Positions 1 to 8,941 of a DNA stretch of 8,941 bases are shown here, piece after piece; positions within the stretch are counted from its first letter, which is position 1; each line of letters begins with the position of its first letter. A program made the translations under genes and the position numbers. This DNA is from Candidatus Pacearchaeota archaeon. GTDB lineage: Archaea > Nanoarchaeota > Nanoarchaeia > Pacearchaeales > GW2011-AR1. The stretch lies in contig NZAS01000146.1 in assembly GCA_002686195.1 (NCBI GenBank), positions 1 through 8,941 of the forward strand, read 5' to 3'. The notes under the pieces were generated by a model. It was given only the letters and a program-made list of their open reading frames with translations, did no database searches and had not been told where the DNA came from.

Positions 1-297
1 GAGCACGCCCACTGGACGGGTGCTGCTGACCGCCTGAACCGAGAGGGCATCGTCAAGTTCTCGGGGTTCGGCTCGCAGGTATATGCCTACGAGGAGTTGG
101 TGGCCGAGATTGGCGCGGCTTTCACATGCGCCTATCTCGGAGTCAAGCGGGAAGGTCTGATGGACAATCATGTGGCCTACCTCGCCAACTGGCGCAAGGC
201 TCTCAAGGATGACCCGACTGTGATTCAGCGGGCCGCGAACGAGGCGGGCAAGGTCATGCGCTACCTCATAAACAAGGGCGAAGGTTCGGGGAGATAA
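1..297 (+). CDS. ArdC-like zincin metallopeptidase, C-terminal fragment (5' end outside window)
   Basis: Reading frame 1 is open from the first base to TAA at 295-297, giving the last 98 residues of a longer protein. It opens with EHAHWTG, which fits an HExxH zinc site whose first His lies just before the window. It continues with DRLNRE, then FGSQVYAYEELVAEIGAAF, matching the EELVAE helix that supplies the third metal ligand in the C-terminal zincin domain of ArdC-like antirestriction proteins and phage polyvalent proteins. The tail (AYLANWRKALKDDP, then an Ala-rich helix ending KVMRYLINKGEG) is also typical of that domain. ArdC proteins bind single-stranded DNA and protect incoming DNA from restriction; here only the peptidase-like domain is seen, so antirestriction activity is inferred. 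Codons are GC-rich compared with genes to the right. Confidence 0.75.
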   Translation, partial: EHAHWTGAADRLNREGIVKFSGFGSQVYAYEELVAEIGAAFTCAYLGVKREGLMDNHVAYLANWRKALKDDPTVIQRAANEAGKVMRYLINKGEGSGR

Positions 298-302
298 TCC
301 CC

Positions 303-350
303 GGCCCTTCGGGCCTTCCCCGAGGGGTTACACCTTCAAGGTGTAACCCC
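303..350 (+). terminator. Two tandem hairpins after the ArdC-like gene
   Basis: The first is a 5-bp GC stem with loop TTC (303-315). The second is a perfect 11-bp stem, GGGGTTACACC/GGTGTAACCCC (324-334 and 340-350), with loop TTCAA. A pyrimidine-rich run follows, but the U-rich stretch begins only about 16 bases later, so this is a probable terminator or mRNA-end stabiliser rather than a textbook intrinsic terminator. Confidence 0.55.
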
Positions 351-369
351 TCCCCTCTCTTCTCTCTTT

Positions 370-397
370 TCGTTTTCTCTTTTCCTATCAGTTACTC
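370..397 (+). promoter_or_regulatory. B-box promoter 1
   Basis: TCGTTT at 370-375, a 17-bp spacer ending in the conserved TTTCCTATCAGT (381-392), and TACTCA as the -10-like hexamer. It lies 21 bases before the start codon of the gene at 419. There is no A box upstream. Confidence 0.65.
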
Positions 398-418
398 ATT
401 CACATGGAGGCAATCACA

Positions 419-1111
419 ATGTCAAAACCCCGAGCAATCCTCAACGCTGGCAAGGTCGTAGAAATCACGGCTGTCAGCCTCATCGTCAAGGCTGGTGGTT
501 CTGCTGCTGGCACCATCCCCGGCTGGCGGGACTACATGGACTTTTGCAGCCTGTGGGATTTCGATGTGGACCCCACTGATGAGTCGAGCGCCCGCCAGCG
601 TACGACTAACCTCTACACCCCAGACGGCGAGCGCATCAACCCCGGTCGTGGCGAGCGCATCATCGATGCCAGCGTGGATGCTCCGATTCTGGGCGTGGAG
701 CATGCCCTACGGTCGCGCTTCCCGGTCAGCATCAAGGCTGGCGATAGCCGGGACATCACCGTGGACATTCCGGCCCTTCGGGGCTGGGTCGAGTCGGGCG
801 CTCCCCTGTGGACCTACTGTCTCAACGGAGAGTCGGAAGCCGTCTACTCTCGCGAAGGTGTCGTGCCGTGGGCTACCAACCTGACCATGCGCCGGGTCGA
901 TGCTGCTGCTGTCATCCGAGCGCAGGCGAAGATTGCCGACCCGTGGAGCATCGATGGACCCACCCGGTTCGCAAAGCTCCGCCGGATGAAGGTCGGCAAG
1001 TACGAGTACACCCGGTTCAACATCAACTGGAACAAGGTGCCTTCCCACCTGTGGATGGACTCCCAGTACATCCCCTTCGACCCCTCCGCTCCTCTGCCCT
1101 GCCCCTGGTAG
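419..1111 (+). CDS. Conserved hypothetical protein, 230 aa, paralogue of the product of 6139-6831
   Basis: I do not recognise a named family. The start at 419 is chosen because GGAGG at 405-409 is correctly spaced; an in-frame ATG at 404 overlaps that site and is not credible. The product is about two thirds identical, end to end and almost without gaps, to the 230-residue protein encoded at 6139-6831. The best conserved blocks are RAILN-GKVVEITAVS near the N-terminus, RINPGRGERIIDA (about residues 72-84), KAGDSRDIT (about 106-114), LRGWVESGAPLW (about 119-130), REGVVP and ADPWS. There is no signal peptide, transmembrane segment or recognisable catalytic motif, so it is probably a soluble cytoplasmic protein. 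A B box precedes it. Leu codons are of the CTN type with no TTG, unlike the genes to the right, and the coding sequence is much GC-richer than its paralogue. Confidence 0.9.
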   Translation: MSKPRAILNAGKVVEITAVSLIVKAGGSAAGTIPGWRDYMDFCSLWDFDVDPTDESSARQRTTNLYTPDGERINPGRGERIIDASVDAPILGVEHALRSRFPVSIKAGDSRDITVDIPALRGWVESGAPLWTYCLNGESEAVYSREGVVPWATNLTMRRVDAAAVIRAQAKIADPWSIDGPTRFAKLRRMKVGKYEYTRFNINWNKVPSHLWMDSQYIPFDPSAPLPCPW

Positions 1112-1118
1112 GGCAGGG
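1092..1118 (+). terminator. Hairpin over the stop codon of the 230-aa gene
   Basis: A 9-bp stem (1092-1100 with 1110-1118, core CTGCCCT/AGGGCAG, one G-T pair) encloses and includes part of the TAG at 1109-1111. No T run follows, so it may only attenuate transcription or stabilise the mRNA end. A smaller 6-bp hairpin, CGCGGG/CCCGCG, follows at 1133-1151. The rest of the gap up to 1193 shows no promoter. Confidence 0.35.
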
Positions 1119-1193
1119 GGCGACCCCTTCAACGCGGGAAAGTGGCCCGCGCACCAGGGAGGCACCCCCTCCCGCAGCATAGGAAGGTGACCC

Positions 1194-1391
1194 ATTCCCT
1201 CCGACTTCAACTATGAAGCCTGGATGAAGTGGCTCGTAACCCACGGTCTTGTAGAACAGGCCGAGGTTCCTGGGATGCTGAAGCGGATTGAGGCTGGCGA
1301 GAAAGTCAGCGTCAAGATTGCTTCAGGCTCCAGGGGCAAGGCGCGAGTCCATGGACATGGTACCGCTGTTCGCTTCTTGTCAAAGAAGTAG
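1194..1391 (+). CDS. Small hypothetical protein (65 aa) with apparent AUU start codon
   Basis: The frame opens after a TGA at 1188-1190 and closes with TAG at 1389-1391. An excellent SD (TAGGAAGGTGA, 1180-1190) sits 6 bases, counted from its AAGG core, before ATT at 1194; no ATG, GTG or TTG is available at that distance in this frame. Started there, the product begins (M)PSDFNYEAWMKWLVTHG and ends with a basic stretch, KVSVKIASGSRGKARVHGHGTAVRFLSKK. The only in-frame ATG that could serve instead, at 1224, has no SD and would lose ten plausible residues. AUU initiation is rare but known, as in E. coli infC, where it serves autoregulation. The family is unknown; the basic C-terminal half could bind nucleic acid. 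It has no promoter of its own and is probably co-transcribed with the gene at 419. Confidence 0.65.
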   Translation: MPSDFNYEAWMKWLVTHGLVEQAEVPGMLKRIEAGEKVSVKIASGSRGKARVHGHGTAVRFLSKK

Positions 1392-1403
1392 CAGCCCCGA
1401 GGT

Positions 1404-1424
1404 TGCACCCGTTCTCCGGGTGCA
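1404..1424 (+). other. Hairpin between stop codon and terminator
   Basis: A perfect 8-bp stem, TGCACCCG/CGGGTGCA, with loop TTCTC lies just upstream of the strong terminator at 1431. It may be part of a double terminator or protect the mRNA end. Confidence 0.4.
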
Positions 1425-1430
1425 CCCTCC

Positions 1431-1472
1431 AGCCCCTGGTGTGTGCCTCCCGCACACCAGGGGCTTTTCTTT
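1431..1472 (+). terminator. Strong intrinsic terminator
   Basis: A perfect 13-bp stem, AGCCCCTGGTGTG (1431-1443) with CACACCAGGGGCT (1453-1465), has a 9-base loop and runs directly into TTTTCTTT. It ends the left, GC-rich block of genes. Confidence 0.9.
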
Positions 1473-1484
1473 GTCCAAAATTCC

Positions 1485-1500
1485 GGGCAAAAACTTTACA
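1485..1500 (+). repeat. A box 1 (GGGCAAAAACTTTACA)
   Basis: One of ten ungapped 16-bp copies in the window with consensus GGGCAAAARNTTTRCA. It begins 20 bases after the terminator stem and ends 9 bases before the TTGATT hexamer of B box 2. Confidence 0.75.
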
Positions 1501-1509
1501 ATTCATTTT

Positions 1510-1537
1510 TTGATTTTCTATTTCTTATCAGTTATTA
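1510..1537 (+). promoter_or_regulatory. B-box promoter 2
   Basis: TTGATT at 1510-1515, a 17-bp spacer ending in TTTCTTATCAGT, then TATTAC. The predicted transcript would start close to the GGAGG at 1543-1547 of the phosphoesterase gene. A box 1 lies upstream at the standard distance. Confidence 0.7.
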
Positions 1538-1554
1538 CACACTGGAGGCAGGAA

Positions 1555-2235
1555 ATGATTTTGTATGTTGGAGACATTCACGGGTCTGTGGACAGCGTGG
1601 TTTCGGTTGATGAAGCTGCGGTGAAGGCTGGGGCTGATTGGGTCATCCAAGTTGGAGACTTTGGAATCTTCTGGCCTGGACGAGATTGCGCCGTTGCCAA
1701 GTACTTTCGCAAGCGTGCTCGTCAGGGTCGGCCCGGTCCAACGTGGTTGACTTGTGGTGGAAACCATGACAACTGGAAAAAGCTGTTTGAGTTGGCCGCC
1801 GCGCAAGGAGAGCCGGACTTGGTAGAGTTGGTGCCTGGCTGCTTTTACGTCCAGCGTGGATGCGTACATGATGTTGATGGAATCAAACATATCTTTTTTG
1901 GCGGTGCGGAGTCTGTGGATAAGCACACACGCGTAGAGGGAGAATCTTGGTGGTCAGAGGAAACCCCTACCTATGGGGAGTTCTCTAACTTCTCGGCTAA
2001 CTTGGAAGATGAAAAGCCGGAGGTTGTTGTCACCCATGAGGCTCCTTCGAGAATCCCTATATATAAAACCAACAGGGATTCATCTACTACGCCACGCAAC
2101 CTCGAAAACATTTTGAAAATGAGTACGCACACGCCTGCAAGGTGGTACTTCGGGCACCATCATGTCAAAGAGTCTTGGACTATTGATGGTGTTGAGTTTC
2201 ATTGTTGTGGGCTTCATGGTGAATATGTAAAATAG
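1555..2235 (+). CDS. Calcineurin-like metallophosphoesterase, 226 aa
   Basis: A complete set of metal-binding motifs of the calcineurin-like phosphoesterase superfamily is visible in order: GDIHG at residues 6-10 (Asp7, His9), GDFG at 34-37 (Asp35), GGNHD at 68-72 (Asn70, His71), THEAP with His161, and GHHH at 200-203. Such enzymes hydrolyse phosphomono- or phosphodiesters with two metal ions; the substrate cannot be read from the sequence. The protein is cytoplasmic, with no signal peptide or membrane segment. The start at 1555 follows GGAGG at 1543-1547; the same frame is open upstream to 1288, but that extension crosses a terminator and a promoter and is not coding. Seven of ten Leu codons are TTG, contrasting with the gene at 419. 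It forms a single-gene unit between two terminators, under A box 1 and B box 2. Confidence 0.93.
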   Translation: MILYVGDIHGSVDSVVSVDEAAVKAGADWVIQVGDFGIFWPGRDCAVAKYFRKRARQGRPGPTWLTCGGNHDNWKKLFELAAAQGEPDLVELVPGCFYVQRGCVHDVDGIKHIFFGGAESVDKHTRVEGESWWSEETPTYGEFSNFSANLEDEKPEVVVTHEAPSRIPIYKTNRDSSTTPRNLENILKMSTHTPARWYFGHHHVKESWTIDGVEFHCCGLHGEYVK

Positions 2236-2256
2236 CGGATAGCCTCCTCCCCCGCT

Positions 2257-2297
2257 CCCTCCATGCGTTTTGTGTATGCACACGCATGGAGGGTTTT
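2257..2297 (+). terminator. Intrinsic terminator of the phosphoesterase gene
   Basis: A 12-bp perfect stem, CCCTCCATGCGT (2257-2268) with ACGCATGGAGGG (2282-2293), has a 13-base loop and is followed by TTTT. It lies 21 bases after the stop codon. Confidence 0.85.
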
Positions 2298-2313
2298 ACA
2301 TGCCTATCTATCC

Positions 2314-2329
2314 GGGCAAAAAATTGACA
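2314..2329 (+). repeat. A box 2, orphan (GGGCAAAAAATTGACA)
   Basis: The copy starts 20 bases after the terminator stem, exactly as A box 1 does, but no B box and no + strand gene follow. It carries TTGACA where the others have TTTRCA. The rest of 2330-2375 is AT-rich with nothing recognisable. Confidence 0.65.
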
Positions 2330-2363
2330 TTTAAAACAAATTAAAATCCAGCAGGTGCCGGCA

Positions 2364-2379
2364 GGTTGTTTTACCAACC
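2364..2379 (+). other. Small hairpin abutting A box 3
   Basis: GGTTG (2364-2368) pairs with CAACC (2375-2379) around a 6-base loop; its last base touches the first base of A box 3. Weak on its own. Confidence 0.3.
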
Positions 2380-2395
2380 GGGCAAAAGTTTTACA
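2380..2395 (+). repeat. A box 3, orphan (GGGCAAAAGTTTTACA)
   Basis: The copy lies in the convergent gap after the minus-strand gene's terminator hairpin. It has no B box and no + strand gene downstream. Confidence 0.65.
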
Positions 2396-2399
2396 TGTG

Positions 2400-2446
2400 C
2401 CCCGAGGTGGAGCAGGGCCGCGTGTTCGCACGACCCTGCTCCGGGG
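2400..2446 (-). terminator. Long hairpin terminating the minus-strand gene
   Basis: A 9-bp stem, GGAGCAGGG (2409-2417) with CCCTGCTCC (2434-2442), is extended by CCCC/GGGG after a four-base bulge, with an inner CGTG-TTCG-CACG tetraloop. A second, smaller stem, CCCC-TAAATA-GGGG (2449-2462), overlaps the stop codon. No strong U run follows on the minus strand. The convergent position supports a terminator role. Confidence 0.6.
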
Positions 2447-2451
2447 TTCCC

Positions 2452-2841
<390 letters not shown>

Positions 2842-2873
2842 GATGTGCCTCCTTGCACTTCGGGTCTATGAAC

Positions 2874-2901
2874 GTATAACCGATAGGAAAGTGAAATTCA
2901 A
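2874..2901 (-). promoter_or_regulatory. B-box promoter 3 (minus strand)
   Basis: Read on the minus strand: TTGAAT (2901-2896), a 17-bp spacer ending in TTTCCTATCGGT, then TATACG. It directs transcription of the 129-aa gene and is the only reverse copy, showing that orientation follows the gene. Confidence 0.68.
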
Positions 2902-2909
2902 ATCTCTCC

Positions 2910-2925
2910 GGGCAAAAAGTTTACA
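2910..2925 (+). repeat. A box 4, shared by divergent promoters (GGGCAAAAAGTTTACA)
   Basis: The copy sits 8 bases from the -35-like hexamer of minus-strand B box 3 and 9 bases from that of B box 4, so it is centred near -52 for both units. Confidence 0.75.
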
Positions 2926-2934
2926 GTTCATTTT

Positions 2935-2962
2935 TTGATTTTGATTTTCTTATCGGTTATAT
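2935..2962 (+). promoter_or_regulatory. B-box promoter 4
   Basis: TTGATT at 2935-2940, a 17-bp spacer ending in TTTCTTATCGGT, then TATATC. It drives the small-gene operon 2994-3650. The leader here is the longest of the set (35 bases from GTTA to the start codon). Confidence 0.7.
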
Positions 2963-2993
2963 CACGATGGAACAAAAAACGAGAGGTATTCCA

Positions 2994-3233
2994 ATGAGAA
3001 ATGAAGCTGTGATTTCTGCGTGGCTTGCGGGCCGTCGAGCGTCTACCGCGAATCTGTCAACGGATGGGCAGGGGCTTTGGTCTTACAATCTTCTGATTGG
3101 TGACCGCTCCGATGGTCTGACCCGAATTTTTGACTACACGGCATCTGGTAACTATATCTCTCAAACAACGTCTTGCCACGTTGGATTGGCGATTCGCGGC
3201 ACTCCCGGCATGACTCTAACAAAGCCAAAATAG
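2994..3233 (+). CDS. Conserved phage hypothetical protein, 79 aa
   Basis: The start at 2994 follows GAGAGG at 2981-2986; an in-frame ATG at 2967 has no SD. The product begins MRNEAVISAWLAGRRASTANLSTD, followed by GLWSYNLLIG, an IFDYTASGNYISQTTSCHVGLA block and a short basic end. I recall similar small proteins in other large phages, usually unannotated; no catalytic motif is visible. It is the first gene of a four-gene operon and its stop codon overlaps the SD of the next gene (AGGAGAGG from 3232). Confidence 0.8.
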   Translation: MRNEAVISAWLAGRRASTANLSTDGQGLWSYNLLIGDRSDGLTRIFDYTASGNYISQTTSCHVGLAIRGTPGMTLTKPK

Positions 3234-3241
3234 GAGAGGCT

Positions 3242-3403
3242 ATGGATAAATCCGACTTGGAGGAATGGGTTGAATTTCTTACAAAACCCGTTTCTAAAAT
3301 TTCTAAAAACCCTTCAAATAAAATTTGCAGTTCATCCGTTGATCAAGACATAGAGCAATGGAAAGCAAAAATAAATAAGGATCAGGAGAAAGAAAATGCT
3401 TGA
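3242..3403 (+). CDS. Small hypothetical protein, 53 aa
   Basis: Begins MDKSDLEEWVEFLTKPVSKISKN and ends DIEQWKAKINKDQEKENA. It is soluble, charged and probably mostly helical, with no recognised family. The SD, AGGAGAGG, overlaps the stop of the upstream gene and is 2-4 bases from the start. The last 8 bases overlap the start of the next gene, suggesting translational coupling. Confidence 0.75.
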   Translation: MDKSDLEEWVEFLTKPVSKISKNPSNKICSSSVDQDIEQWKAKINKDQEKENA

Positions 3404-3476
3404 CTTTATTATAGGAGCGGTTATCATCTGGGTAGTCTTTCGCTTGTTGGATCACGTTTGGCGGAAGATTCGTTAA
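3396..3476 (+). CDS. Predicted single-pass membrane miniprotein, 26 aa
   Basis: MLDFIIGAVIIWVVFRLLDHVWRKIR: one hydrophobic helix (about residues 3-18) followed by a basic end, a layout that favours a cytoplasmic C-terminus. AGGAG at 3384-3388 gives good spacing, and the start overlaps the end of the upstream gene by 8 bases. Its role is unknown; phage miniproteins of this shape may act on host membrane proteins, but that is only a possibility. Confidence 0.65.
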   Translation: MLDFIIGAVIIWVVFRLLDHVWRKIR

Positions 3477-3503
3477 TCACACACATATATATGGAGATAT
3501 AAA

Positions 3504-3650
3504 ATGGAAGTAGCATTTGGAATTTTTGGAGTAGCATTTGGCCTGTGCGTTTACGCCCTCGCCTTTATTGGTGGCCGCCAGCTTTGGCAGCAACGCAAGC
3601 TTGTCCGCGTGCCTGTTTCTTCTACCCCTGTTAATGTAGAAGAAGATTAA
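3504..3650 (+). CDS. Predicted single-pass membrane protein, 48 aa
   Basis: MEVAFGIFGVAFGLCVYALAFIGG forms a hydrophobic N-terminal helix with small-residue (Gly/Ala) spacing. It is followed by a basic juxtamembrane stretch, RQLWQQRKLVR, and an acidic end, VEED. The SD, GGAGAT (3492-3497), is correctly placed. It is the last gene of the operon started by B box 4. It could be cleaved as a signal peptide, but no clear signal-peptidase site or lipobox is seen, so an anchored small protein is more likely. Confidence 0.7.
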   Translation: MEVAFGIFGVAFGLCVYALAFIGGRQLWQQRKLVRVPVSSTPVNVEED

Positions 3651-3668
3651 AGCCCCCGCGAGTCGCAC

Positions 3669-3691
3669 CGCGTGCACAATTTGTGTGCGTG
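3669..3691 (+). terminator. Possible weak hairpin after the small-gene operon
   Basis: CGCGTGCAC (3669-3677) can pair with GTGTGCGTG (3683-3691) using three G-T pairs around loop AATTT. No T run follows. It is reported because it lies where a terminator is expected. Confidence 0.3.
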
Positions 3692-3701
3692 CGTGCCCTC
3701 T

Positions 3702-3717
3702 GGGCAAAAAGTTTGCA
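3702..3717 (+). repeat. A box 5, first of a tandem pair (GGGCAAAAAGTTTGCA)
   Basis: This copy has a good dyad, GCAAA-AAG-TTTGC. It lies 25 bp upstream of A box 6, so the two copies are about 2.4 helical turns apart. Confidence 0.7.
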
Positions 3718-3726
3718 TACACGCGC

Positions 3727-3742
3727 GGGCAAAAGATTTACA
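3727..3742 (+). repeat. A box 6, second of a tandem pair (GGGCAAAAGATTTACA)
   Basis: This copy ends 10 bases before the TTGATT of B box 5, the standard arrangement. Confidence 0.72.
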
Positions 3743-3752
3743 TTTGGTATTT

Positions 3753-3780
3753 TTGATTTCTGCTTTCTTATCAGTTATAT
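3753..3780 (+). promoter_or_regulatory. B-box promoter 5
   Basis: TTGATT at 3753-3758, a 17-bp spacer ending in TTTCTTATCAGT, then TATATT (3776-3781), the best -10 match of the set. The predicted start would be at or next to the AAGGAG of the gene at 3801. Confidence 0.72.
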
Positions 3781-3800
3781 TGCTTTGAAGGAGAAATCAA

Positions 3801-4154
3801 ATGAGCATTACCCGACGACAGTTTTTCGCACGCATGCGTAAGCTTGGATATTCCAAGTCTCGTATGCAAATGACTCGGATTGGTCTTACCTATGTAAAGG
3901 AAGAGGATGGCAATCGCGTGACCGTGACTGTGCCAAAGCATCACGAGAGCACATTCCACATTCTTGGGGATGTTCCGTATAGCGGCATCTTCGTTGAAAA
4001 GATTGCAGGTCGTGAAACTAACTGGGGGACTCCAGTTGACACCAAGGCTCTTGGTCTTGAAATGTTTGAGGTGTGCTTGGGGCTTTGCTCTGGCGGCATC
4101 GAGATGGTCCGGCAACCTTTGGAGGGCCGCGCCGAAGGTGGCCCAGCAAAGTAA
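3801..4154 (+). CDS. Hypothetical protein, 117 aa
   Basis: I do not recognise the family. A basic N-terminal helix (MSITRRQFFARMRKLGYSKSRMQM, residues 1-24) precedes a mixed domain with a strand-like VTVTVPKHHES, then FVEKIAGRETNWGTPVD and an LGLEMFEVCLGLCSGGIEM segment; the tail is Gly/Ala/Lys. There is no signal peptide or clear membrane helix. AAGGAG lies 7 bases before the start. The gene opens an operon with the miniprotein at 4179 and probably reads on into 4339-5105. Confidence 0.82.
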   Translation: MSITRRQFFARMRKLGYSKSRMQMTRIGLTYVKEEDGNRVTVTVPKHHESTFHILGDVPYSGIFVEKIAGRETNWGTPVDTKALGLEMFEVCLGLCSGGIEMVRQPLEGRAEGGPAK

Positions 4155-4178
4155 TCTATTATTGTTGAGGGGGATGGC

Positions 4179-4292
4179 ATGAGAAAAGTAAAGACCAGCA
4201 GGAAGATTAGATTTCTGGTAGCTTGTGCCGTCGCCTTCTCAATGATTCTTGGAATGTTTGTCAAGGAAGATTGCGAAAAAGAAGGTAATTGA
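4179..4292 (+). CDS. Predicted membrane miniprotein, 37 aa
   Basis: MRKVKTSRKIRFLVACAVAFSMILGMFVKEDCEKEGN: a strongly basic N-terminus, one hydrophobic segment (about residues 12-28) and an acidic C-terminus, the positive-inside pattern of a type II anchor or an uncleaved signal. VACA could be read as a poor lipobox but is too close to the start of the hydrophobic segment. GAGGGGG at 4167-4173 serves as SD; the ATG at 4174 would give only two codons. The -35-like hexamer of B box 6 overlaps its stop codon. Confidence 0.6.
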   Translation: MRKVKTSRKIRFLVACAVAFSMILGMFVKEDCEKEGN

Positions 4293-4316
4293 ATTTCGTT
4301 TTCTTATCGGTTACTC
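4289..4316 (+). promoter_or_regulatory. B-box promoter 6 (internal to an operon)
   Basis: TTGAAT at 4289-4294 overlaps the upstream stop codon; the 17-bp spacer ends in TTTCTTATCGGT and is followed by TACTCT. There is no A box, so this promoter may be basal or constitutive within the regulon. Confidence 0.65.
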
Positions 4317-4338
4317 TGTTGTACACAAGGAGAATGAC

Positions 4339-4605
4339 ATGTTTATCGACGCAAATGAAATTATCACCCTTATCCAAGCCGCAAGGGATTGTGAGGCAAA
4401 GCTGCCAAAAGAGGAGCAGTGGATTCATGTTAGTGATATTGCAGCAACACTTCAGAAGCTGATTGACGATGAAGGTGCCCGCCAAGAAGCGGCGATGGAT
4501 AAGATGGCTGAAGATTACGAGGATGAGGAATACGGAAGGCTTGAGTGTGAAAACGCTGCAATCGAAAAGCAGCTTTCCATGCAAGATTGGCCGGGAGGAG
4601 TTTAG
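4339..4605 (+). CDS. Hypothetical acidic protein, 88 aa
   Basis: Begins MFIDANEIITLIQAARDCEAKLPKEEQWIHVSDIAATLQKLIDDEGA and ends with a very acidic helix (DKMAEDYEDEEYGRLECENAAIEKQ) and WPGGV. It is probably helical throughout and soluble; I do not recognise it. AAGGAG lies 8 bases before the start. The end overlaps the SD region of the downstream kinase, implying coupled translation. Confidence 0.8.
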   Translation: MFIDANEIITLIQAARDCEAKLPKEEQWIHVSDIAATLQKLIDDEGARQEAAMDKMAEDYEDEEYGRLECENAAIEKQLSMQDWPGGV

Positions 4606-4658
4606 AGATGACTGTTCACAGGAATATGTTTAATAAAAGAAACGAGGAGGAGTTTAAA

Positions 4659-5105
4659 ATGAGAACCCTTACTTTGATTCGCGGGATTTCTGGATGTGGC
4701 AAGACCACGCTGGCCCGACAGCTTGCCCTTGGTGGCTCTCGAAAGCTCCTCGCCGCTGATGATTATTTTGTTGGCAACGATGGAGTTTATCACTTTGACC
4801 CCTCTGGGCTACCCAAGGCTCACGCCTGGTGTCAGGAAGAAGCGTTGTCTGCTATGGAACAGGGGCTCCACGTCATTGTTCATAATACCTTTACTCAAAG
4901 GTGGGAGATGGAACCCTATCTCCAGATGGCGACCCAGCACGGGTATCAGGTGACTGTTGCTTCCATCTATGATGGAGGTTTGACAGACGAGGAGTTGACC
5001 GAGCGGAACGAGCATGGTGTGCCCTTGGCCGGCATCTCTCAAATGAGAGAACGCTTTGAGCATGACTGGAAGAATGGAAACCCAAAGCCTCCTTGGGAGA
5101 GGTAG
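4659..5105 (+). CDS. P-loop kinase, N4BP2L1-like (AAA_33 type), 148 aa
   Basis: The P-loop GISGCGKTT spans residues 9-17. It is followed by LAADDYF (Asp34, Asp35), DGVYHFDPSGLPKAHAWCQEEAL, VIVHNTFTQRWEMEPYLQMA and ERNEHGVP. This order is characteristic of the NEDD4-binding-protein-2-like family, related to polynucleotide 5'-kinase domains. Asn76 in HNTF matches the usual DNTN position with one substitution. The likely reaction is ATP-dependent phosphorylation of a nucleic acid or nucleotide, but the substrate is unproven. The start at 4659 is chosen from the GAGGAGGAG just upstream and because family members begin a few residues before the P-loop. An in-frame ATG at 4608 with its own SD, GGGAGGAG, could give a form 17 residues longer. 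It is the last gene of its operon, followed by a palindrome. Confidence 0.88.
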   Translation: MRTLTLIRGISGCGKTTLARQLALGGSRKLLAADDYFVGNDGVYHFDPSGLPKAHAWCQEEALSAMEQGLHVIVHNTFTQRWEMEPYLQMATQHGYQVTVASIYDGGLTDEELTERNEHGVPLAGISQMRERFEHDWKNGNPKPPWER

Positions 5106-5121
5106 CCTCCCTCCTTTCCCT

Positions 5122-5145
5122 CCCTTGGTGAAATTTCACCAAGGG
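5122..5145 (+). terminator. Perfect 24-bp palindrome after the kinase gene
   Basis: CCCTTGGTGAAA and its exact reverse complement TTTCACCAAGGG meet without a spacer, so an RNA stem of about 10 bp with a 4-base loop can form. No U run follows; A box 7 starts 4 bases later. It may be a terminator or a protein-binding palindrome. Confidence 0.6.
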
Positions 5146-5149
5146 TCCC

Positions 5150-5165
5150 GGGCAAAAACTTTACA
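5150..5165 (+). repeat. A box 7, orphan (GGGCAAAAACTTTACA)
   Basis: Identical in sequence to A box 1 but followed by an AT-rich stretch (including TATAAT at 5169-5174) and no B box or gene within 100 bases. Confidence 0.7.
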
Positions 5166-5193
5166 ATGTATAATATATACTAACTCATTCTCT

Positions 5194-5218
5194 TTATGTT
5201 TAACTACGTTAAACATAA
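5194..5218. repeat. Perfect 11-bp inverted repeat in the 5106-5332 gap
   Basis: TTATGTTTAAC and GTTAAACATAA flank a TAC loop. It is AT-rich with no T tract after it, so it fits an operator better than a terminator. The rest of this gap (5219-5260) shows nothing recognisable. Confidence 0.6.
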
Positions 5219-5260
5219 CATCTGATTCCAAGGTTGTCAAGTAAAAAAACAAATATTTTC

Positions 5261-5276
5261 GGGCAAAAAGTTTACA
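5261..5276 (+). repeat. A box 8 (GGGCAAAAAGTTTACA)
   Basis: The copy ends 9 bases before the TTGTAT of B box 7, the standard arrangement. Confidence 0.74.
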
Positions 5277-5285
5277 ACTCATTTT

Positions 5286-5313
5286 TTGTATTTGGCTTTC
5301 TTATCGGTTACTC
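5286..5313 (+). promoter_or_regulatory. B-box promoter 7
   Basis: TTGTAT at 5286-5291, a 17-bp spacer ending in TTTCTTATCGGT, then TACTCT. The bases after the promoter core (ctctg-tgtacaaggaga) closely resemble those of B box 6. Confidence 0.7.
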
Positions 5314-5332
5314 TGCTGTACAAGGAGACAAG

Positions 5333-5779
5333 ATGAACCCGATTGATGACACCGTTGGTAGCCCGATTTTCGTGGGTAGCGAAGCAGAAGCAAGTTCCAT
5401 GATTGGGCTTATTGATGTTTTTACGGCTCTCGACTCTTTTGTGACTGGGGTTTATCAATCCCTTCCTCGTGAAGTTGCAGACCTTGTGGCAACACGTATT
5501 TCGGGGGTGCTGCACTTTTGTGCTTCCAATAACTTGAATGGATTTCTTATTCCGCTCTGTGTCGAGGAAGGTCTTTCGCTCCACGCTTTTACGCCGAATG
5601 GAGTAGCTTCCTCTATCGTTGATGTGCCGGAAAGCGGCATTTCCTCAAAGTGGGTTCTTGCTCAGATTCAAGAGGCCGCCGAAAAGGACAGCCTTGTTTG
5701 CGACATGGCCCTCGCTCAGTTTCTCTGTGGCTTCGCTGGAGATGACCCATCGAATTGGATTCAGGTTCTCTCTGGATAG
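5333..5779 (+). CDS. Hypothetical protein, 148 aa
   Basis: I do not recognise the family. It is a mixed alpha/beta soluble protein with no cleavable signal or convincing membrane segment, although SMIGLIDVFTALDSFVTGVYQSL and FLIPLCVEEGLSLHAF are moderately hydrophobic. The start at 5333 follows AAGGAG at 5322-5327; the open frame upstream to 5234 crosses the promoter and is not coding. It is a single-gene unit under A box 8 and B box 7. Confidence 0.82.
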   Translation: MNPIDDTVGSPIFVGSEAEASSMIGLIDVFTALDSFVTGVYQSLPREVADLVATRISGVLHFCASNNLNGFLIPLCVEEGLSLHAFTPNGVASSIVDVPESGISSKWVLAQIQEAAEKDSLVCDMALAQFLCGFAGDDPSNWIQVLSG

Positions 5780-5811
5780 CTATAAGAATATGACTCGGCT
5801 CGTAAAATCGA

Positions 5812-5833
5812 CTTGACATATTCTTGACATATT
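5812..5833 (+). repeat. Tandem 11-bp direct repeat CTTGACATATT x2
   Basis: Two perfect adjacent copies (5812-5822 and 5823-5833), each with a consensus TTGACA. CATATTCTT, spanning their junction, also pairs with AAGAATATG at 5784-5792. They lie where an A box would be expected upstream of B box 8. Confidence 0.7.
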
Positions 5834-5851
5834 TAATCCAGCTTTCATTTT

Positions 5852-5879
5852 TTGATTTCCACTTTCTTATCAGTTATAT
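5852..5879 (+). promoter_or_regulatory. B-box promoter 8
   Basis: TTGATT at 5852-5857 within a T-rich tract, a 17-bp spacer ending in TTTCTTATCAGT, then TATATC. There is no A box; the tandem TTGACA repeat lies 18 bases upstream. Confidence 0.7.
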
Positions 5880-5899
5880 CCACGTACAAGGAGGCCGTC

Positions 5900-6091
5900 A
5901 TGGGCAAGAAGATTAAAAAGTTTGATGCACTGAAGGCTCACAAGGCTGCTGCTCGCAAAGCACACTTTGCAGCAGGTGGAACACTTGCTATGTGGCGTGG
6001 ACGTGCGGCTACGTTGGACGAGTCCACCTCAAAGGCACGTAAGAACAAGTTTGCTTGTCGAGGTTGGAAGTCGAACGATAACAACGAATAA
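5900..6091 (+). CDS. Small basic protein, 63 aa
   Basis: MGKKIKKFDALKAHKAAARKAHFAAGGTLAMWRGRAA, then a Ser/Thr/Lys-rich segment and an Asn-rich end. It is highly basic with an Ala/Lys helix near the N-terminus, so nucleic-acid binding is plausible but unproven. I recall similar KAAARKAHFAAGG proteins from other phages without a known role. AAGGAGG lies 6 bases before the start. It is a single-gene unit, closely followed by B box 9. Confidence 0.8.
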   Translation: MGKKIKKFDALKAHKAAARKAHFAAGGTLAMWRGRAATLDESTSKARKNKFACRGWKSNDNNE

Positions 6092-6119
6092 ATGATTTTT
6101 ACTTTCCTATCAGTTATAC
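6092..6119 (+). promoter_or_regulatory. B-box promoter 9
   Basis: ATGATT at 6092-6097, a 17-bp spacer ending in TTTCCTATCAGT, then TATACA. It starts at the first base after the upstream stop codon and has no room for an A box outside coding sequence. Confidence 0.68.
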
Positions 6120-6138
6120 ATGGGTACAGGAGGAAGAC

Positions 6139-6831
6139 ATGAAAGAACGAGCAATTCTAAATACAGGCAAGGTTGTTGAAATTACAGCCGTGTCTATCAT
6201 CGAGCAAGCGGGTGGCGCGCCTGCGGGCTGCTCCGAGGGCTGGAAGCACATACTCCATTACGCTAACTGTTTTGGCTTTGACTTTACGCACACAGATGAA
6301 AAGTCGGCACGCCAACGGAAGACCAATCTCTACACCGCAGATGGGCAGCGTATCAATCCGGGCAGGGGCGAGCGTATCATTGATGCAGTTGTCAAGGCTC
6401 CTATTCTTGGGCTGGAACACGCCATGTATGTAAGTATGCCTGTGAGCCTAAAGGCCGGAGATAGTAGGGATATCACTACGGATATCAAGGGCTTGCGAGG
6501 TTGGGTAGAGAGCGGTGCGCCTCTCTGGGTCTACTGTATCAACGGAGAGGCTGAGCCTGTGAGATACCGGGAAGGCGTGGTTCCTTATGCTACTGGTCTA
6601 ACTATGCAGCGGATTGATGTTGCAGAGGTTATCCGAGAGCAAGCCAAGACAGCCGACCCTTGGAGCGTGGAAGGTCCCAAGCGGTTCGCCTTCCTCCGCA
6701 ACATGAAGGTGAACGGGTATACTTACCCACGTTTCCGTATCAACTGGAAGTCTGTGCCCTCCAGCTTGTGGCTCGATGCCAAGCCCATCCCCTTCAACCC
6801 ATCGGCTTCCCTTCCATCCCCGTGGTGGTAG
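6139..6831 (+). CDS. Conserved hypothetical protein, 230 aa, paralogue of the product of 419-1111
   Basis: The product aligns end to end with the 230-residue protein of 419-1111, about two thirds identical by hand count. The variable segments are residues 21-50 (the region around GCSEGWKHILHYANC), the residues before PVSLKAGD, and the last third. Conserved blocks include RAILN-GKVVEITAVS, RINPGRGERIIDA, KAGDSRDIT, LRGWVESGAPLW, REGVVP and ADPWS. AGGAGG lies 6 bases before the start. Both copies are directly preceded by a B box without an A box, so the duplicated unit may include its promoter. Base composition is much lower in GC than in the other copy. The function is unknown; it is soluble with no catalytic motif that I recognise. 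Confidence 0.9.
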   Translation: MKERAILNTGKVVEITAVSIIEQAGGAPAGCSEGWKHILHYANCFGFDFTHTDEKSARQRKTNLYTADGQRINPGRGERIIDAVVKAPILGLEHAMYVSMPVSLKAGDSRDITTDIKGLRGWVESGAPLWVYCINGEAEPVRYREGVVPYATGLTMQRIDVAEVIREQAKTADPWSVEGPKRFAFLRNMKVNGYTYPRFRINWKSVPSSLWLDAKPIPFNPSASLPSPWW

Positions 6832-6837
6832 GCGGTC

Positions 6838-6853
6838 GGGCAAAAACTTTGCA
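6838..6853 (+). repeat. A box 9 (GGGCAAAAACTTTGCA)
   Basis: The copy begins 6 bases after the stop codon of the paralogue, with dyad GCAAA-AAC-TTTGC. It ends 15 bases before the -35-like hexamer of B box 10, the widest spacing seen. Confidence 0.72.
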
Positions 6854-6868
6854 CTCCGCCGCAGTTTT

Positions 6869-6896
6869 TCGTATTCTCCTTTCTTATCGGTTATAT
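6869..6896 (+). promoter_or_regulatory. B-box promoter 10
   Basis: TCGTAT at 6869-6874, a 17-bp spacer ending in TTTCTTATCGGT, then TATATG. It drives the overlapping gene run 6917-7621 and possibly the lipoprotein gene and the tRNA, since no other promoter is seen before 8070. Confidence 0.68.
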
Positions 6897-6916
6897 GTGG
6901 ATGTAAGGAGGCAGGT

Positions 6917-7162
6917 ATGAATCGGACTGATGAAGAAGTAGAAGCAGAAGTATCGAGGCAAGAACGACAGGCTGCCGAGGCCGCCGAGATTGAGACACAT
7001 ATTCAAGAATATAACTCTGATAGCCGCTCTGCCTGTAAAGAGTGGGTGTGGAATGGCGGCAGGCTTGGAGACGAATACTATTGGGCGCACATATGCGGCC
7101 AGAAATATTATCAACTTGATTCGCCCGTAAAATGTTATCTCGGGTGCGAGGAAGAAGAATGA
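6917..7162 (+). CDS. Small acidic hypothetical protein, 81 aa
   Basis: A charged helical N-terminus (TDEEVEAEVSRQERQAAEAAEIETHIQEYN) precedes an aromatic and Cys-containing part (ACKEWVWNGG, EYYWAHICGQKYYQLDSPVKCYLGCEEEE). Four Cys could bind a metal, but spacing does not match a standard zinc ribbon. AAGGAGG lies 6 bases before the start. The stop codon overlaps the next start as ATGA. Confidence 0.8.
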   Translation: MNRTDEEVEAEVSRQERQAAEAAEIETHIQEYNSDSRSACKEWVWNGGRLGDEYYWAHICGQKYYQLDSPVKCYLGCEEEE

Positions 7163-7296
7163 TGTTTGGAATGAAGTTTGGCTACTCTCCCGATAGAAGT
7201 AGGCAAGAGGCTATCATGGATAAAGTCAAGGAGCGCTTGAAGCGCGAAGCCTTGAGAGAATTGCAAGAGAAGGAGAAAAAGAAAAATGGGTCTTGA
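7159..7296 (+). CDS. Small basic helical protein, 45 aa
   Basis: MMFGMKFGYSPDRSRQEAIMDKVKERLKREALRELQEKEKKKNGS. It starts in an ATGA overlap with the gene before and ends 11 bases inside the gene after, so translation is probably coupled. Residues 15-42 form a highly charged, probably coiled helix. No family is recognised. GAGGAAGAAG within the upstream gene can serve as SD. Confidence 0.6.
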   Translation: MMFGMKFGYSPDRSRQEAIMDKVKERLKREALRELQEKEKKKNGS

Positions 7297-7621
7297 CCAA
7301 TACGCATTTGCTCGCAAGGATGATAAGCAAATTGAAATTGCTTATTGGCGTAAGCACGCAAACCTTGAAGGTTGGATGGCGAATCTTTATAAGGCTCGAA
7401 GTCCTTCAAAAGCGGACCATAGCTTTAACTGTGTTGAGTTAAAGCTATTTGAAGGAGACCTACTCCGACTTGCGAAGGAGCATGAGAGTCTTGAGCAGGC
7501 CGAAGGGTTCTTCTGGGGAACATCTCATCAAGAGGATGTTGTAAGCACGCAAGCGTTTATTGATAAGGCAGGCGTCTTGATAAAAGATGGGTGGGAAATC
7601 ATTTACACCTCTTGGTGGTGA
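7286..7621 (+). CDS. Conserved phage protein of the MGLDQYA type, 111 aa
   Basis: It carries the hallmark blocks of a small family that I recall from many marine and other large phages: MGLDQYAFAR at the start, EIAYWRKHANLEGWM (about residues 17-31), FNCVEL, a central L-x2-L helix, QAEGFFWGTS, and the C-terminal IIYTSWW. Relatives are sometimes given enzyme names, but no kinase or other catalytic motif is visible here, so the function should be regarded as unknown. AAGGAG lies 8 bases before the start, inside the preceding gene. The last residues form a conserved aromatic end, indicating that the frame is intact. Confidence 0.87.
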   Translation: MGLDQYAFARKDDKQIEIAYWRKHANLEGWMANLYKARSPSKADHSFNCVELKLFEGDLLRLAKEHESLEQAEGFFWGTSHQEDVVSTQAFIDKAGVLIKDGWEIIYTSWW

Positions 7622-7635
7622 TTTTGTTGCATGCG

Positions 7636-7672
7636 TCTGTGTTCATGAGTATTATTCATTCATGAACACAGA
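7636..7672 (+). promoter_or_regulatory. 13-bp perfect hairpin covering a start codon
   Basis: TCTGTGTTCATGA (7636-7648) pairs fully with TCATGAACACAGA (7660-7672) around an 11-base loop. The 3' arm contains the likely ATG at 7662 of the downstream gene. No T run follows, so it is not a canonical terminator for the gene ending at 7621. Confidence 0.65.
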
Positions 7673-7946
7673 TTGTCAAAAAGAAGACAGATTGTTAATC
7701 ACATCTGTGGCCGGAGCCGTTGCAAAATCAGTTCTCTATATATGTATCACAGTGGCTGCGTGTACGTGGATATCCGCATGCAATATTAGTGCCGCCACAA
7801 TAGAGGCCTGCCAAAGTTCTTGCAAGAGCTATGGTTCGCATATGGAGTCAGTTACATCTGGCAAGTGCGTATGTGCAAGTTACAGTTCTATATCAACTAC
7901 GCCTGACCCATGGGTAATACCAAGAGCAAGCAGCACAGCGAAGTAA
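7662..7946 (+). CDS. Putative small lipoprotein or membrane-anchored Cys-rich protein, 94 aa
   Basis: After a charged N-terminus (MNTDCQKEDR) comes a hydrophobic segment, LLITSVAGAVAKSVLYICITVAAC, with lipobox-like VAAC (Cys34) and a second candidate, ISAC (Cys40). A Cys-rich part follows (EACQSSCKSYGSHMESVTSGKCVCAS), then a Ser/Thr/Pro end. It could be a lipoprotein, possibly of the outer-spanin or surface-exclusion kind, or a single-pass membrane protein; neither is shown. Start choice is uncertain: 7662 lies inside a 13-bp hairpin and lacks an SD. The frame is also open from an ATG at 7587, overlapping the upstream gene, which would add 25 residues without a better SD. The stop codon is immediately followed by the tRNA. 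Confidence 0.55.
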   Translation: MNTDCQKEDRLLITSVAGAVAKSVLYICITVAACTWISACNISAATIEACQSSCKSYGSHMESVTSGKCVCASYSSISTTPDPWVIPRASSTAK

Positions 7947-8031
7947 GGCCGGATGATGGAATAGGTAGACATGACAGATTCAAAATCTGTTGCCCATGGG
8001 CGTGAGGGTTCGACTCCCTCTTCGGCTACCA
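7947..8031 (+). tRNA. tRNA-Leu (anticodon CAA), CCA encoded
   Basis: All arms are visible. The acceptor stem is GGCCGGA with TTCGGCT, including G-U pairs at 1:72 and 6:67. The D-stem is ATG/CAT with AGG in the loop. The anticodon stem is ACAGA/TCTGT with loop TTCAAAA, hence anticodon CAA reading UUG. A 13-base variable region can form a small GCC/GGC stem, as in class II tRNAs. The T-arm is GAGGG/CCCTC with loop TTCGACT. Discriminator A73 is as expected for Leu, followed by encoded CCA. It begins directly after the stop codon at 7946, so it must be cut out of a longer transcript unless it has its own promoter. Confidence 0.93.
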
Positions 8032-8042
8032 CAATCTAATCC

Positions 8043-8058
8043 GGGCAAAAACTTTGCA
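8043..8058 (+). repeat. A box 10 (GGGCAAAAACTTTGCA)
   Basis: Identical to A box 9. It begins 11 bases after the tRNA and ends 11 bases before the -35-like hexamer of B box 11. Confidence 0.74.
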
Positions 8059-8069
8059 TTTAAACTTTC

Positions 8070-8097
8070 TTGTATTCTCTTTTCCTATCGGTTATCC
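8070..8097 (+). promoter_or_regulatory. B-box promoter 11
   Basis: TTGTAT at 8070-8075, a 17-bp spacer ending in TTTCCTATCGGT, then TATCCT. It drives the SprT-like gene and the gene after it. Confidence 0.68.
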
Positions 8098-8121
8098 TTT
8101 CGTATAACGGAGGTAATCAAG

Positions 8122-8688
8122 ATGTTCAGACCCGATATCAAAGCAATGTTTGTCCGATTGAACGACGAACATTTCAACGGCGAGATTCCCGACATTCCTG
8201 TTTTGTGGAATACTCGAATGACCACAACTGCTGGTTATGGCCGATACAAAAGAAGCGGGCTTGCCGAAACTTTTGCCAGTCGCGGCCAAACCCTTGAGCC
8301 GACCAAGATTGACTTGTCGGACCAGTTGTTCCGAAACGAGGACTACGACCTTGCCAAGATTGAGCGTACTTTGATTCACGAAATGGTTCATGCCTTTTTG
8401 GTTCACAAGTATAACGAGAAAGGCCATACTCGGCGCTTCCAGAATATGATGACCAGAATCACTGGCGAATATAAGAATCATCGTTGTCACAACTATAACA
8501 CGGAAGGTTTGCGTCGGAAGCAGGAAAAGAAAGTCAAGTGGACTTGCACTGGCTGTGGTGCCGAGGGCTGGAAGGTCCGTATGCCAAAGAGGCCCAATGG
8601 GCATATTTGTCGGGGTTGCAGGAGTCGTGTTGTATTCGTAGATACGAGAAAGCAGACCTCTATCAACATGTTCCCCCCAAAGTTTTAG
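8122..8688 (+). CDS. SprT-like zinc metallopeptidase, 188 aa
   Basis: The catalytic motif HEMVH is at residues 86-90, and a GH at 101-102 (KGHTRRF) supplies the expected third His. The N-terminal part (MFVRLNDEHFNGEIPDIPVLWNTRMTTTAGYGRY) is typical of the SprT/Spartan fold. A C-terminal zinc ribbon is seen as CTGC (142-145) and CRGC (163-166). The family includes Spartan/SPRTN, which degrades DNA-protein crosslinks, and many phage and bacterial members of untested role; proteolysis during DNA replication is a reasonable inference. CGGAGG lies 9 bases before the start. Seven of ten Leu codons are TTG, matching the tRNA just upstream. It is the first gene of a unit under A box 10 and B box 11; the next gene's SD begins in its stop codon. 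Confidence 0.92.
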   Translation: MFRPDIKAMFVRLNDEHFNGEIPDIPVLWNTRMTTTAGYGRYKRSGLAETFASRGQTLEPTKIDLSDQLFRNEDYDLAKIERTLIHEMVHAFLVHKYNEKGHTRRFQNMMTRITGEYKNHRCHNYNTEGLRRKQEKKVKWTCTGCGAEGWKVRMPKRPNGHICRGCRSRVVFVDTRKQTSINMFPPKF

Positions 8689-8698
8689 GAGAGTAAAA

Positions 8699-8941
8699 AT
8701 GTCTTACGATAATGTGCCAGACGATTGGGGATGTTATTATACTAACTGTGGTTATTGTGGTACTCGGTATCACATGAGCGAGGGTGGGTGTGATTGTGAC
8801 GAAGGTGCTATTGCGGAGTCCGACAGGCCTTGGCTTCAAGACTCTGGATATGAATGGGAAGATGGCAACTGGGTACGATTCGTTTGCTCATCAACACATA
8901 CTTGCAGGCGCAACCATGTTGATGGAAAGATAAAGGTTGGA
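8699..8941 (+). CDS. Cys-rich hypothetical protein, 3' end outside window
   Basis: Starts at 8699 after AGGAGAG, overlapping the upstream stop region, and stays open for 81 codons to the end of the window. It begins MSYDNVPDDWGCYYTNCGYCGTRYHMSEGGCDCDEGA, with CxxC (NCGYCG) and GCDCD, suggesting one metal-binding knuckle; two further Cys occur near residues 63-69 (FVCSSTHTC). I recall similar MSYDNVP proteins in other large phages without a known role. It is co-transcribed with the SprT-like gene. Confidence 0.8.
   Translation, partial: MSYDNVPDDWGCYYTNCGYCGTRYHMSEGGCDCDEGAIAESDRPWLQDSGYEWEDGNWVRFVCSSTHTCRRNHVDGKIKVG

Follow-up and report, generated by a model that had tools for sequence, protein, structure and literature searches.

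A conserved spacer block marks a candidate class of phage-specific promoters whose words differ between lineages of an uncultured jumbo-phage family

What could recognise a promoter whose spacer is better conserved than its hexamers? This question is raised by an 8,941-base stretch of DNA (GenBank contig NZAS01000146.1, positions 1 to 8,941, filed under a Candidatus Pacearchaeota archaeon; hereafter the window), in which eleven copies of one block, the B box, lie between pairs of promoter-like hexamers ahead of a run of small genes. An initial annotation, made from the letters alone, had described these copies as a phage promoter family read by a phage-encoded factor or a modified polymerase. 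We evaluated the family in the window and in related viral contigs. The reading that we favour, with a probability of roughly 0.68, is that B represents a phage-specific promoter class used by host RNA polymerase together with a fast-evolving specificity protein made by the phage.

All eleven sites were recovered where the initial annotation had placed them, with the same hexamers (TTGATT four times) and a hexamer-to-hexamer distance of 17 bp in 11/11. Numbered by position, and with upstream hexamer, core, predicted transcript start and gene start given in brackets, the plus-strand B promoters are 1 at 370..404 (TCGTTT; 381-394; 404; 419, a paralogue of the gene at 6139), 2 at 1510..1544 (TTGATT; 1521-1534; 1544; a metallophosphoesterase gene at 1555), 4 at 2935..2969 (TTGATT; 2946-2959; 2969; 2994), 5 at 3753..3787 (TTGATT; 3764-3777; 3787; 3801), 6 at 4289..4323 (TTGAAT; 4300-4313; 4323; 4339), 7 at 5286..5320 (TTGTAT; 5297-5310; 5320; 5333), 8 at 5852..5886 (TTGATT; 5863-5876; 5886; 5900), 9 at 6092..6126 (ATGATT; 6103-6116; 6126; 6139), 10 at 6869..6903 (TCGTAT; 6880-6893; 6903; 6917) and 11 at 8070..8104 (TTGTAT; 8081-8094; 8104; an SprT-like gene at 8122). 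The only minus-strand copy, B promoter 3, spans 2867..2901 (TTGAAT; 2890-2877; 2867; gene 2841-2452). The extended core TTTCYTATCRGTTAY gave 11 exact matches in the window and none in 200 dinucleotide shuffles. Allowing up to two mismatches to the 12-mer resulted in 12 matches, compared to a shuffle mean of 2.19 and a maximum of 8, and the twelfth match (2818-2829) falls outside the B family. A position weight matrix, as the initial annotation had proposed, scored its own 11 sites at 36.1-42.6 and the rest of the window at no more than 5.5. Every core lies outside gene calls and is oriented toward the gene downstream (11/11), ahead of its start codon by 19-33 nt from the core end at the ten plus-strand sites and by 34 nt at the minus-strand site (2876 to 2841). 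One detail of the earlier description needed amendment, namely the five free bases between hexamer and block, of which the first is T in 11/11.

Conservation was calculated over the 11 sites and without small-sample correction. It amounted to 1.49 bits/position in the -35-like hexamer, 1.84 in the 12-bp block, 1.55 in the 17-bp spacer as a whole and 1.10 in the -10-like hexamer, with 0.27 and 0.18 bits/position in the flanks, so that the block does exceed both hexamers as had been proposed. The sites were gathered using the block itself; its high value is nevertheless not an artefact of that selection, as the two-mismatch search added no intermediate site. The duplicated genes at 419-1111 and 6139-6831, whose proteins are 68% identical (155/229), allow selection to be told from copying. 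Their promoters at 370 and 6092 agree at 14/14 core positions, core variants C and A included, while agreement is 3/6 in the hexamer and 10/34 in the upstream bases, and third positions of conserved four- and six-fold residues are identical at 29/93, near chance. As flank and silent sites have thus diverged around an intact core, selection, on this comparison, maintains the block and leaves hexamers and flanks free to drift, although gene conversion limited to the core could formally also have produced the 14/14 identity.

These figures bear on the simplest rival, that B boxes are ordinary host sigma70 promoters made alike by recent duplication. One gene pair is indeed duplicated together with its core variants, and B resembles sigma70 extended -10 promoters in its 17-bp spacing, within the usual 16-18 bp, in the TTG of most upstream hexamers, in an invariant TA at the place of -12/-11 and in a conserved G two bases before that TA. 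The hexamers, however, match TTGACA at 3.4/6 and TATAAT at 3.7/6 on average over the 11 sites, with T at the final -10-like position in only 4/11, and are not near consensus. The spacer is conserved upstream of -15, where E. coli polymerase makes no specific spacer contacts according to PMC2613000. Since moreover the flanks carry no more than 0.27 and 0.18 bits/position, and those of the duplicated pair are at chance like the silent sites beside an identical core, this explanation is scarcely credible.

The full B pattern was then sought elsewhere. In genome contigs of 84,980 species it gave 7 single matches, never two in a listed stretch, and a bacterial host promoter class was on this ground rejected for the exact pattern, looser variants not having been searched. 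In viral contigs the long pattern occurred in one contig, G001 (82.8 kb), where the exact window core stands three times, in each case on the same strand and ahead of a gene, compared to 0 in the mirror control. The three G001 promoters share the core amid differing surroundings, which again speaks against recent duplication. The short core pattern was uninformative, with at least 120 stretches in viral contigs and one match in each of the 80 shown. G001 is a jumbo-phage fragment that encodes DNA polymerase III alpha-like, PurZ-like and UvsX-like proteins, terminase, portal and sigma proteins. Relatives of its terminase were found on 143 contigs, of which the best 80 were kept, the longest being 395 kb; among the best 20 of 99 records from annotated phages, identity to this terminase was at most 26%. 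Taking 21 further records, mostly by length, gave together with G001 a set of 22 related records, all fragments, and the exact window core was present in 0/21 of the added terminase relatives. One of these, G004, is a 232.5-kb phage contig that matches 5/19 tested open reading frames (ORFs) of the window at 38-69% identity; of the same 19 ORFs, G005 matches four and G003 one. The window itself contains no terminase or other hallmark gene, it has no DNA-level match in the phage collection, and its SprT protein has no match in phages. Its genes shared with this group, the A repeat described below and the exact B core in G001 nevertheless place it in the same family, and by these features the window is part of an uncultured jumbo phage. 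The phage origin assumed by the initial annotation is thereby supported. As a separate observation, the PurZ-like protein (G001:C1:9490-10509; phrog_1211, E 5.9e-65) has orthologues in G002, G003, G004, G005 and G007, which hints that these phages may carry modified adenine in their DNA.

Some of the relatives carry blocks of their own at matching places. In G004 two promoter types were recognised: type I, TTGATCTCTTATCCTAGTYSGGTTAT, with 15 copies at 4.1-17.3 kb and 17 bp between the TTG hexamer and TAT, and type II, TTGCACCATATCCCAGSCSGGTTATA, with 17 regular-expression matches at 18.2-79.1 kb and a spacing of 16 bp. Of the type II matches, those at 38790 and 75998 (minus) were judged by eye to be chance and removed, leaving 15. 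As collection by exact words inflates conservation values, none were used for these two sets. In G001 one core follows groEL and the other two precede g9 and g17; G004 has a type II block at all three places. G007 has TTTCTACACCAGCTAT, TTTCTACACCGACTAC and TTTCTGCATCATCTAC there, all TTTCTACACCRRCTAY-like; across its genome, that word gave 4 matches at two mismatches compared to 2 in the control. Looser blocks were seen by eye at the same three places in G002. The region upstream of g17 was examined more widely, at 24 of 26 loci, with L311 and L312 (25% and 21% identity) left out. A block of the TTTYTNNAYCRRYTAY kind was readable in about half of the 24, and L288-L291 and L306 have a different word. 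With different words at matching places in G001, G004 and G007, the promoters keep their positions and it is the word that changes by lineage. A pattern that forms no bacterial promoter family in the genome collection searched and differs at the same places among related phages strengthens one half of the original proposal, namely that the reader is encoded by the phage. Such a specificity protein would change fast between lineages, and the DNA word would change along with it while the promoters stay in place.

Transcript starts may be predicted from the same alignment. With the first core T taken as position 0, position 22 is T in 10/11 and position 23 a purine in 11/11; the G004 promoters have a pyrimidine followed mostly by G at the matching step. 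Transcription would on this basis begin at the conserved purine, giving leaders of 11-25 nt for plus-strand promoters and of 26 nt for the minus-strand one, in line with the very short leaders that had been predicted. ATG 404 would then be the first base of its transcript and ATG 2967 would lie upstream of the start, which leaves 419 and 2994 as the start codons. Leaders of g17 orthologues were folded at ten of these 24 loci, chosen by eye for a readable core and not for a hairpin; each was folded by itself, since gaps in their alignment prevented the counting of base pairs. In 10/10, a stem of 5-8 bp starts 9-11 nt past the last A of the core, against a background of 4% in random 30-mers from the same loci, and its bases differ among the ten leaders while its position stays fixed. 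This fixed position supports a transcript start there in the g17 orthologues, as judged from the folded sequences. Hairpins of this type are absent from the leaders of the window. Upstream of the g17 ATPase (L287-L310) the 5'-terminal hairpin may protect the 5' end of the transcript.

A second repeat, GGGCAAAAASTTTRCA, had been overlooked in the initial annotation and is here termed the A element. All of its 10 window copies lie on the plus strand, and A begins 25-31 nt upstream of 6/10 plus-strand B hexamers. These copies are at 1485..1500 (25 nt before hexamer 1510), 2910..2925 (25 nt before 2935, and in opposite sense also upstream of the minus-strand promoter), 3727..3742 (26 nt before 3753), 5261..5276 (25 nt before 5286), 6838..6853 (31 nt before 6869) and 8043..8058 (27 nt before 8070). 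The copy at 3702..3717 precedes the following A element by 25 nt, and those at 2314..2329, 2380..2395 and 5150..5165 have no B box nearby. A is remote from the other four plus-strand hexamers, being absent near B promoters 6, 8 and 9 among them. With at most one mismatch, GGGCAAWNNNTTTRCA has 10 copies in the window against 1 in the control, 78 against 2 in G004 and 2-6 against 0-1 in each of G001, G002, G003, G005 and G007; the A word of the window gave 14 single matches in viral contigs and no cluster. The G004 elements are concentrated in the type I region, where 73 occur at 4-22 kb (L267; at most two mismatches), many in tandem at 33-34 bp. They are present in both orientations and some are distant from any B promoter. 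Same-strand neighbours are 23-25, 33-35 or 44-45 bp apart (24 pairs), which corresponds to a vector length of 0.92 at a period of 10.1 and 0.91 at 10.5, reached by none of 5000 uniform draws. The sequence between phased elements is mostly unrelated, two interveners being nearly identical. At plus-strand type I promoters, A lies 23 bp before the -35-like hexamer in 11/13 and 34 bp before it in 2/13. Helical phasing of this kind is the pattern expected of a protein bound to one face of the helix, and in the window and G004 an upstream protein would probably assist the promoter by binding A at about -60 to -45.

Which polymerase uses the B promoters was approached through the proteins of the related records. 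A near-invariant 14-bp block close to gene starts might be expected of a phage-encoded RNA polymerase, either a T7-type single subunit or a multisubunit enzyme of the phiKZ/AR9 type, and jumbo-phage promoter families with their own words are described for AR9 and phiKZ. Distant phage beta-prime subunits can escape the PF04998 model. PF04998 (beta-prime family) matched in 0/22 related records, among which the genome of the window is not included, and in 14/14 controls, and PF00940 (T7-type family) likewise matched in 0/22 whereas T7 itself was positive (E 9.9e-110). B-phage relatives differ from AR9 and phiKZ in that no phage polymerase was found in the 22 records. The phages most likely use host core polymerase, a phage-made enzyme now appears very improbable, and the modified polymerase of the initial annotation is in this form disfavoured. 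Another jumbo-phage group relies on host polymerase and sigma factors of its own, according to PMC7824862.

A phage sigma might in principle read the whole B promoter, block included, with no further activator. The search for such a sigma suggested by the initial annotation succeeded in so far as PF04542 (sigma region 2) matched in 21/22 related records, twice in 7, and G004 combines two sigma genes with two promoter types. One of the sigma types is RpoH-like over its whole length in G011, the only record on which NCBIfam was run (TIGR02392, E 5.6e-55, 186.9 bits, below the cut-off of 323.1). Neither type, however, follows the motif. The RpoH-like sigma was found in G004, G006, G008, G011 and G013 only. 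It is missing from G007 in tblastn with five RpoH-like proteins, although G007 bears blocks that are close to those of G008 and G011 and its contig extends 33 kb past g17, on the side where this gene is elsewhere 23-28 kb off. As the five carriers moreover have three quite different words, the RpoH-like sigma does not track the motif and was set aside as a poor candidate for the reader. The second, universal sigma has 209 homologues, of which 120 were listed, and is well conserved. Its structure model reached a mean predicted local distance difference test score of 81.9 and a predicted template modelling score of 0.46; its best Foldseek matches were largely sigma chains at template modelling scores of 0.20-0.29, low because domain placement is uncertain. 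Some structural genes of G001, G002 and G007 are preceded by an AT-rich motif, ACTATTAATA or ACTAATAWT (no control was run), which is absent before g71 and g25 in G004. This suggests that the universal sigma serves late genes and makes the AT-rich motif a likelier late promoter here than B, which would act before the late genes. Sigma is not known to contact -24 to -18. Positions upstream of -15 are free of specific polymerase contacts according to PMC2613000, and a sigma acting alone is, taken together, unlikely. Apart from this, possible late-promoter copies of ACTATTAATA or ACTAATA were noted at G001:73814, 21636 and 78312 and at their orthologues, before structural and HU-like genes. G001 further encodes two GroEL-like proteins (by eye) and an Hsp20 protein (g2, g47 and g22), which with the RpoH-like sigma of the family may point to a phage heat-shock programme. 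As the reverse complement of the core recalls the flagellar -10, a FliA-like promoter on the opposite strand was weighed on paper only, and this idea was abandoned when inspection by eye gave no second box to match.

The block could alternatively be an operator at which a phage repressor silences host-type early promoters, as at the stoperators of mycobacteriophage L5. These are short asymmetric sites in many copies, held in one orientation to transcription, in short intergenic regions near gene starts, as PMC9283540 describes them, and B shares these properties, its asymmetry being oriented with transcription in 11/11. Weak yet sigma70-like hexamers at a 17-bp spacing would also suit this view. 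Operators and stoperators, however, need no fixed promoter register, whereas 11/11 window sites and all G004 type I sites keep one with the -35-like hexamer, the -10-like TA and the start-site step, and sites outside promoters and without this register were not found in the window. Immunity repressors are typical of temperate phages and there was no sign of lysogeny, which was not specifically searched for. We regard silencing as the main role of the block as rather improbable.

Compared to described systems, the T4 middle promoters are, by analogy, those that work most like B. They too have a weak or absent -35, depend on a phage protein acting on host polymerase (MotA/AsiA) and conserve bases beside the -10, as given in PMC1524935. 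The GCTT of the Mot box occupies -30 to -27 there, 11-13 bp upstream of TATAAT, whereas the B word lies at about -24 to -13 and abuts the -10. GCTT is absent from the B columns at the MotA place, where TTGWWT is found, and B is on account of the Mot box position not a T4 middle promoter. Further differences are that the last T of TATAAT is not kept in B and that the B word varies by lineage. T4 late promoters (gp55 sigma, TATAAATA) share with the B phages an encoded sigma with region 2; they consist of just one 8-bp -10 motif, spanning -13 to -6, while B extends to about -35. An earlier description of promoters like B was not found in the open literature, subscription papers and preprints not being covered.

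Several observations weigh against the favoured reading. No reader gene was found in the related records. Among ten left-arm proteins of G001 Pfam detected no DNA-binding domain, only HSP20 in one. The G002 block does not rise above its mirror control (10 vs 6 at one mismatch, 88 vs 80 at two), G003 and G005 have no clear block at the matching places, and 8/24 g17 loci (L299, L301-L305, L309 and L310) have none recognisable by eye. Four of the ten plus-strand window B boxes are without an A element and the distances at the others vary (25, 25, 26, 25, 31 and 27 nt). The ten folded leaders were picked by eye from 24, and L292, L294 and L297 are close relatives. A repressor may, finally, read the same block.

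Taken together, the B box would be the core of a promoter class that drives small, non-structural genes in an uncultured jumbo-phage family. Host RNA polymerase core would initiate some 23 nt past the first T of the B core. The stretch from about -24 to -13 would be recognised by a specificity protein that the phage encodes, most probably an activator or a sigma-appropriating factor.

The genes of the window, which has 49.6% GC and is about 25% intergenic by the gene calls used, include besides the metallophosphoesterase and the SprT-like protein an AAA/kinase-like protein, a tRNA-Leu and the two paralogues of unassigned function. The paralogues have no Pfam or PHROG match and belong to a family of 8 members in the protein database, one of them on a 348-kb contig. 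Relatives were confirmed neither among 28 pattern stretches in viral contigs, nor among 124 in genome contigs, nor in phages or plasmids. The tRNA-Leu (anticodon CAA, 7947-8031) stands among the small genes directly upstream of B promoter 11. A CTCGTC-type repeat at 2505-2531 gives the protein of the minus-strand gene 2841-2452 an acidic stretch, DEDEDEDEDED.

Promoters that belong to a phage and are read by one of its own proteins together with host polymerase are already known. What sets B apart is that the word lies in the spacer, a region whose bases polymerase is not known to recognise, and that it turns over between lineages. A bolder interpretation is that B represents a new form of promoter takeover, in which a phage protein reads the spacer, its specificity drifts in each lineage so that sister phages sharing a host could not use each other's promoters, and in one lineage the reader acts together with a second protein on helically phased upstream arrays; this we put forward tentatively, as possible and on balance doubtful. 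The differing words at orthologous promoters of related phages would provide a natural series for the study of DNA-binding specificity and of how many sites change together. From the B family one would expect a reader protein, so far undiscovered, in these abundant uncultured jumbo phages, and the phased A arrays of G004 point to a second DNA-binding protein that may be tested in turn.

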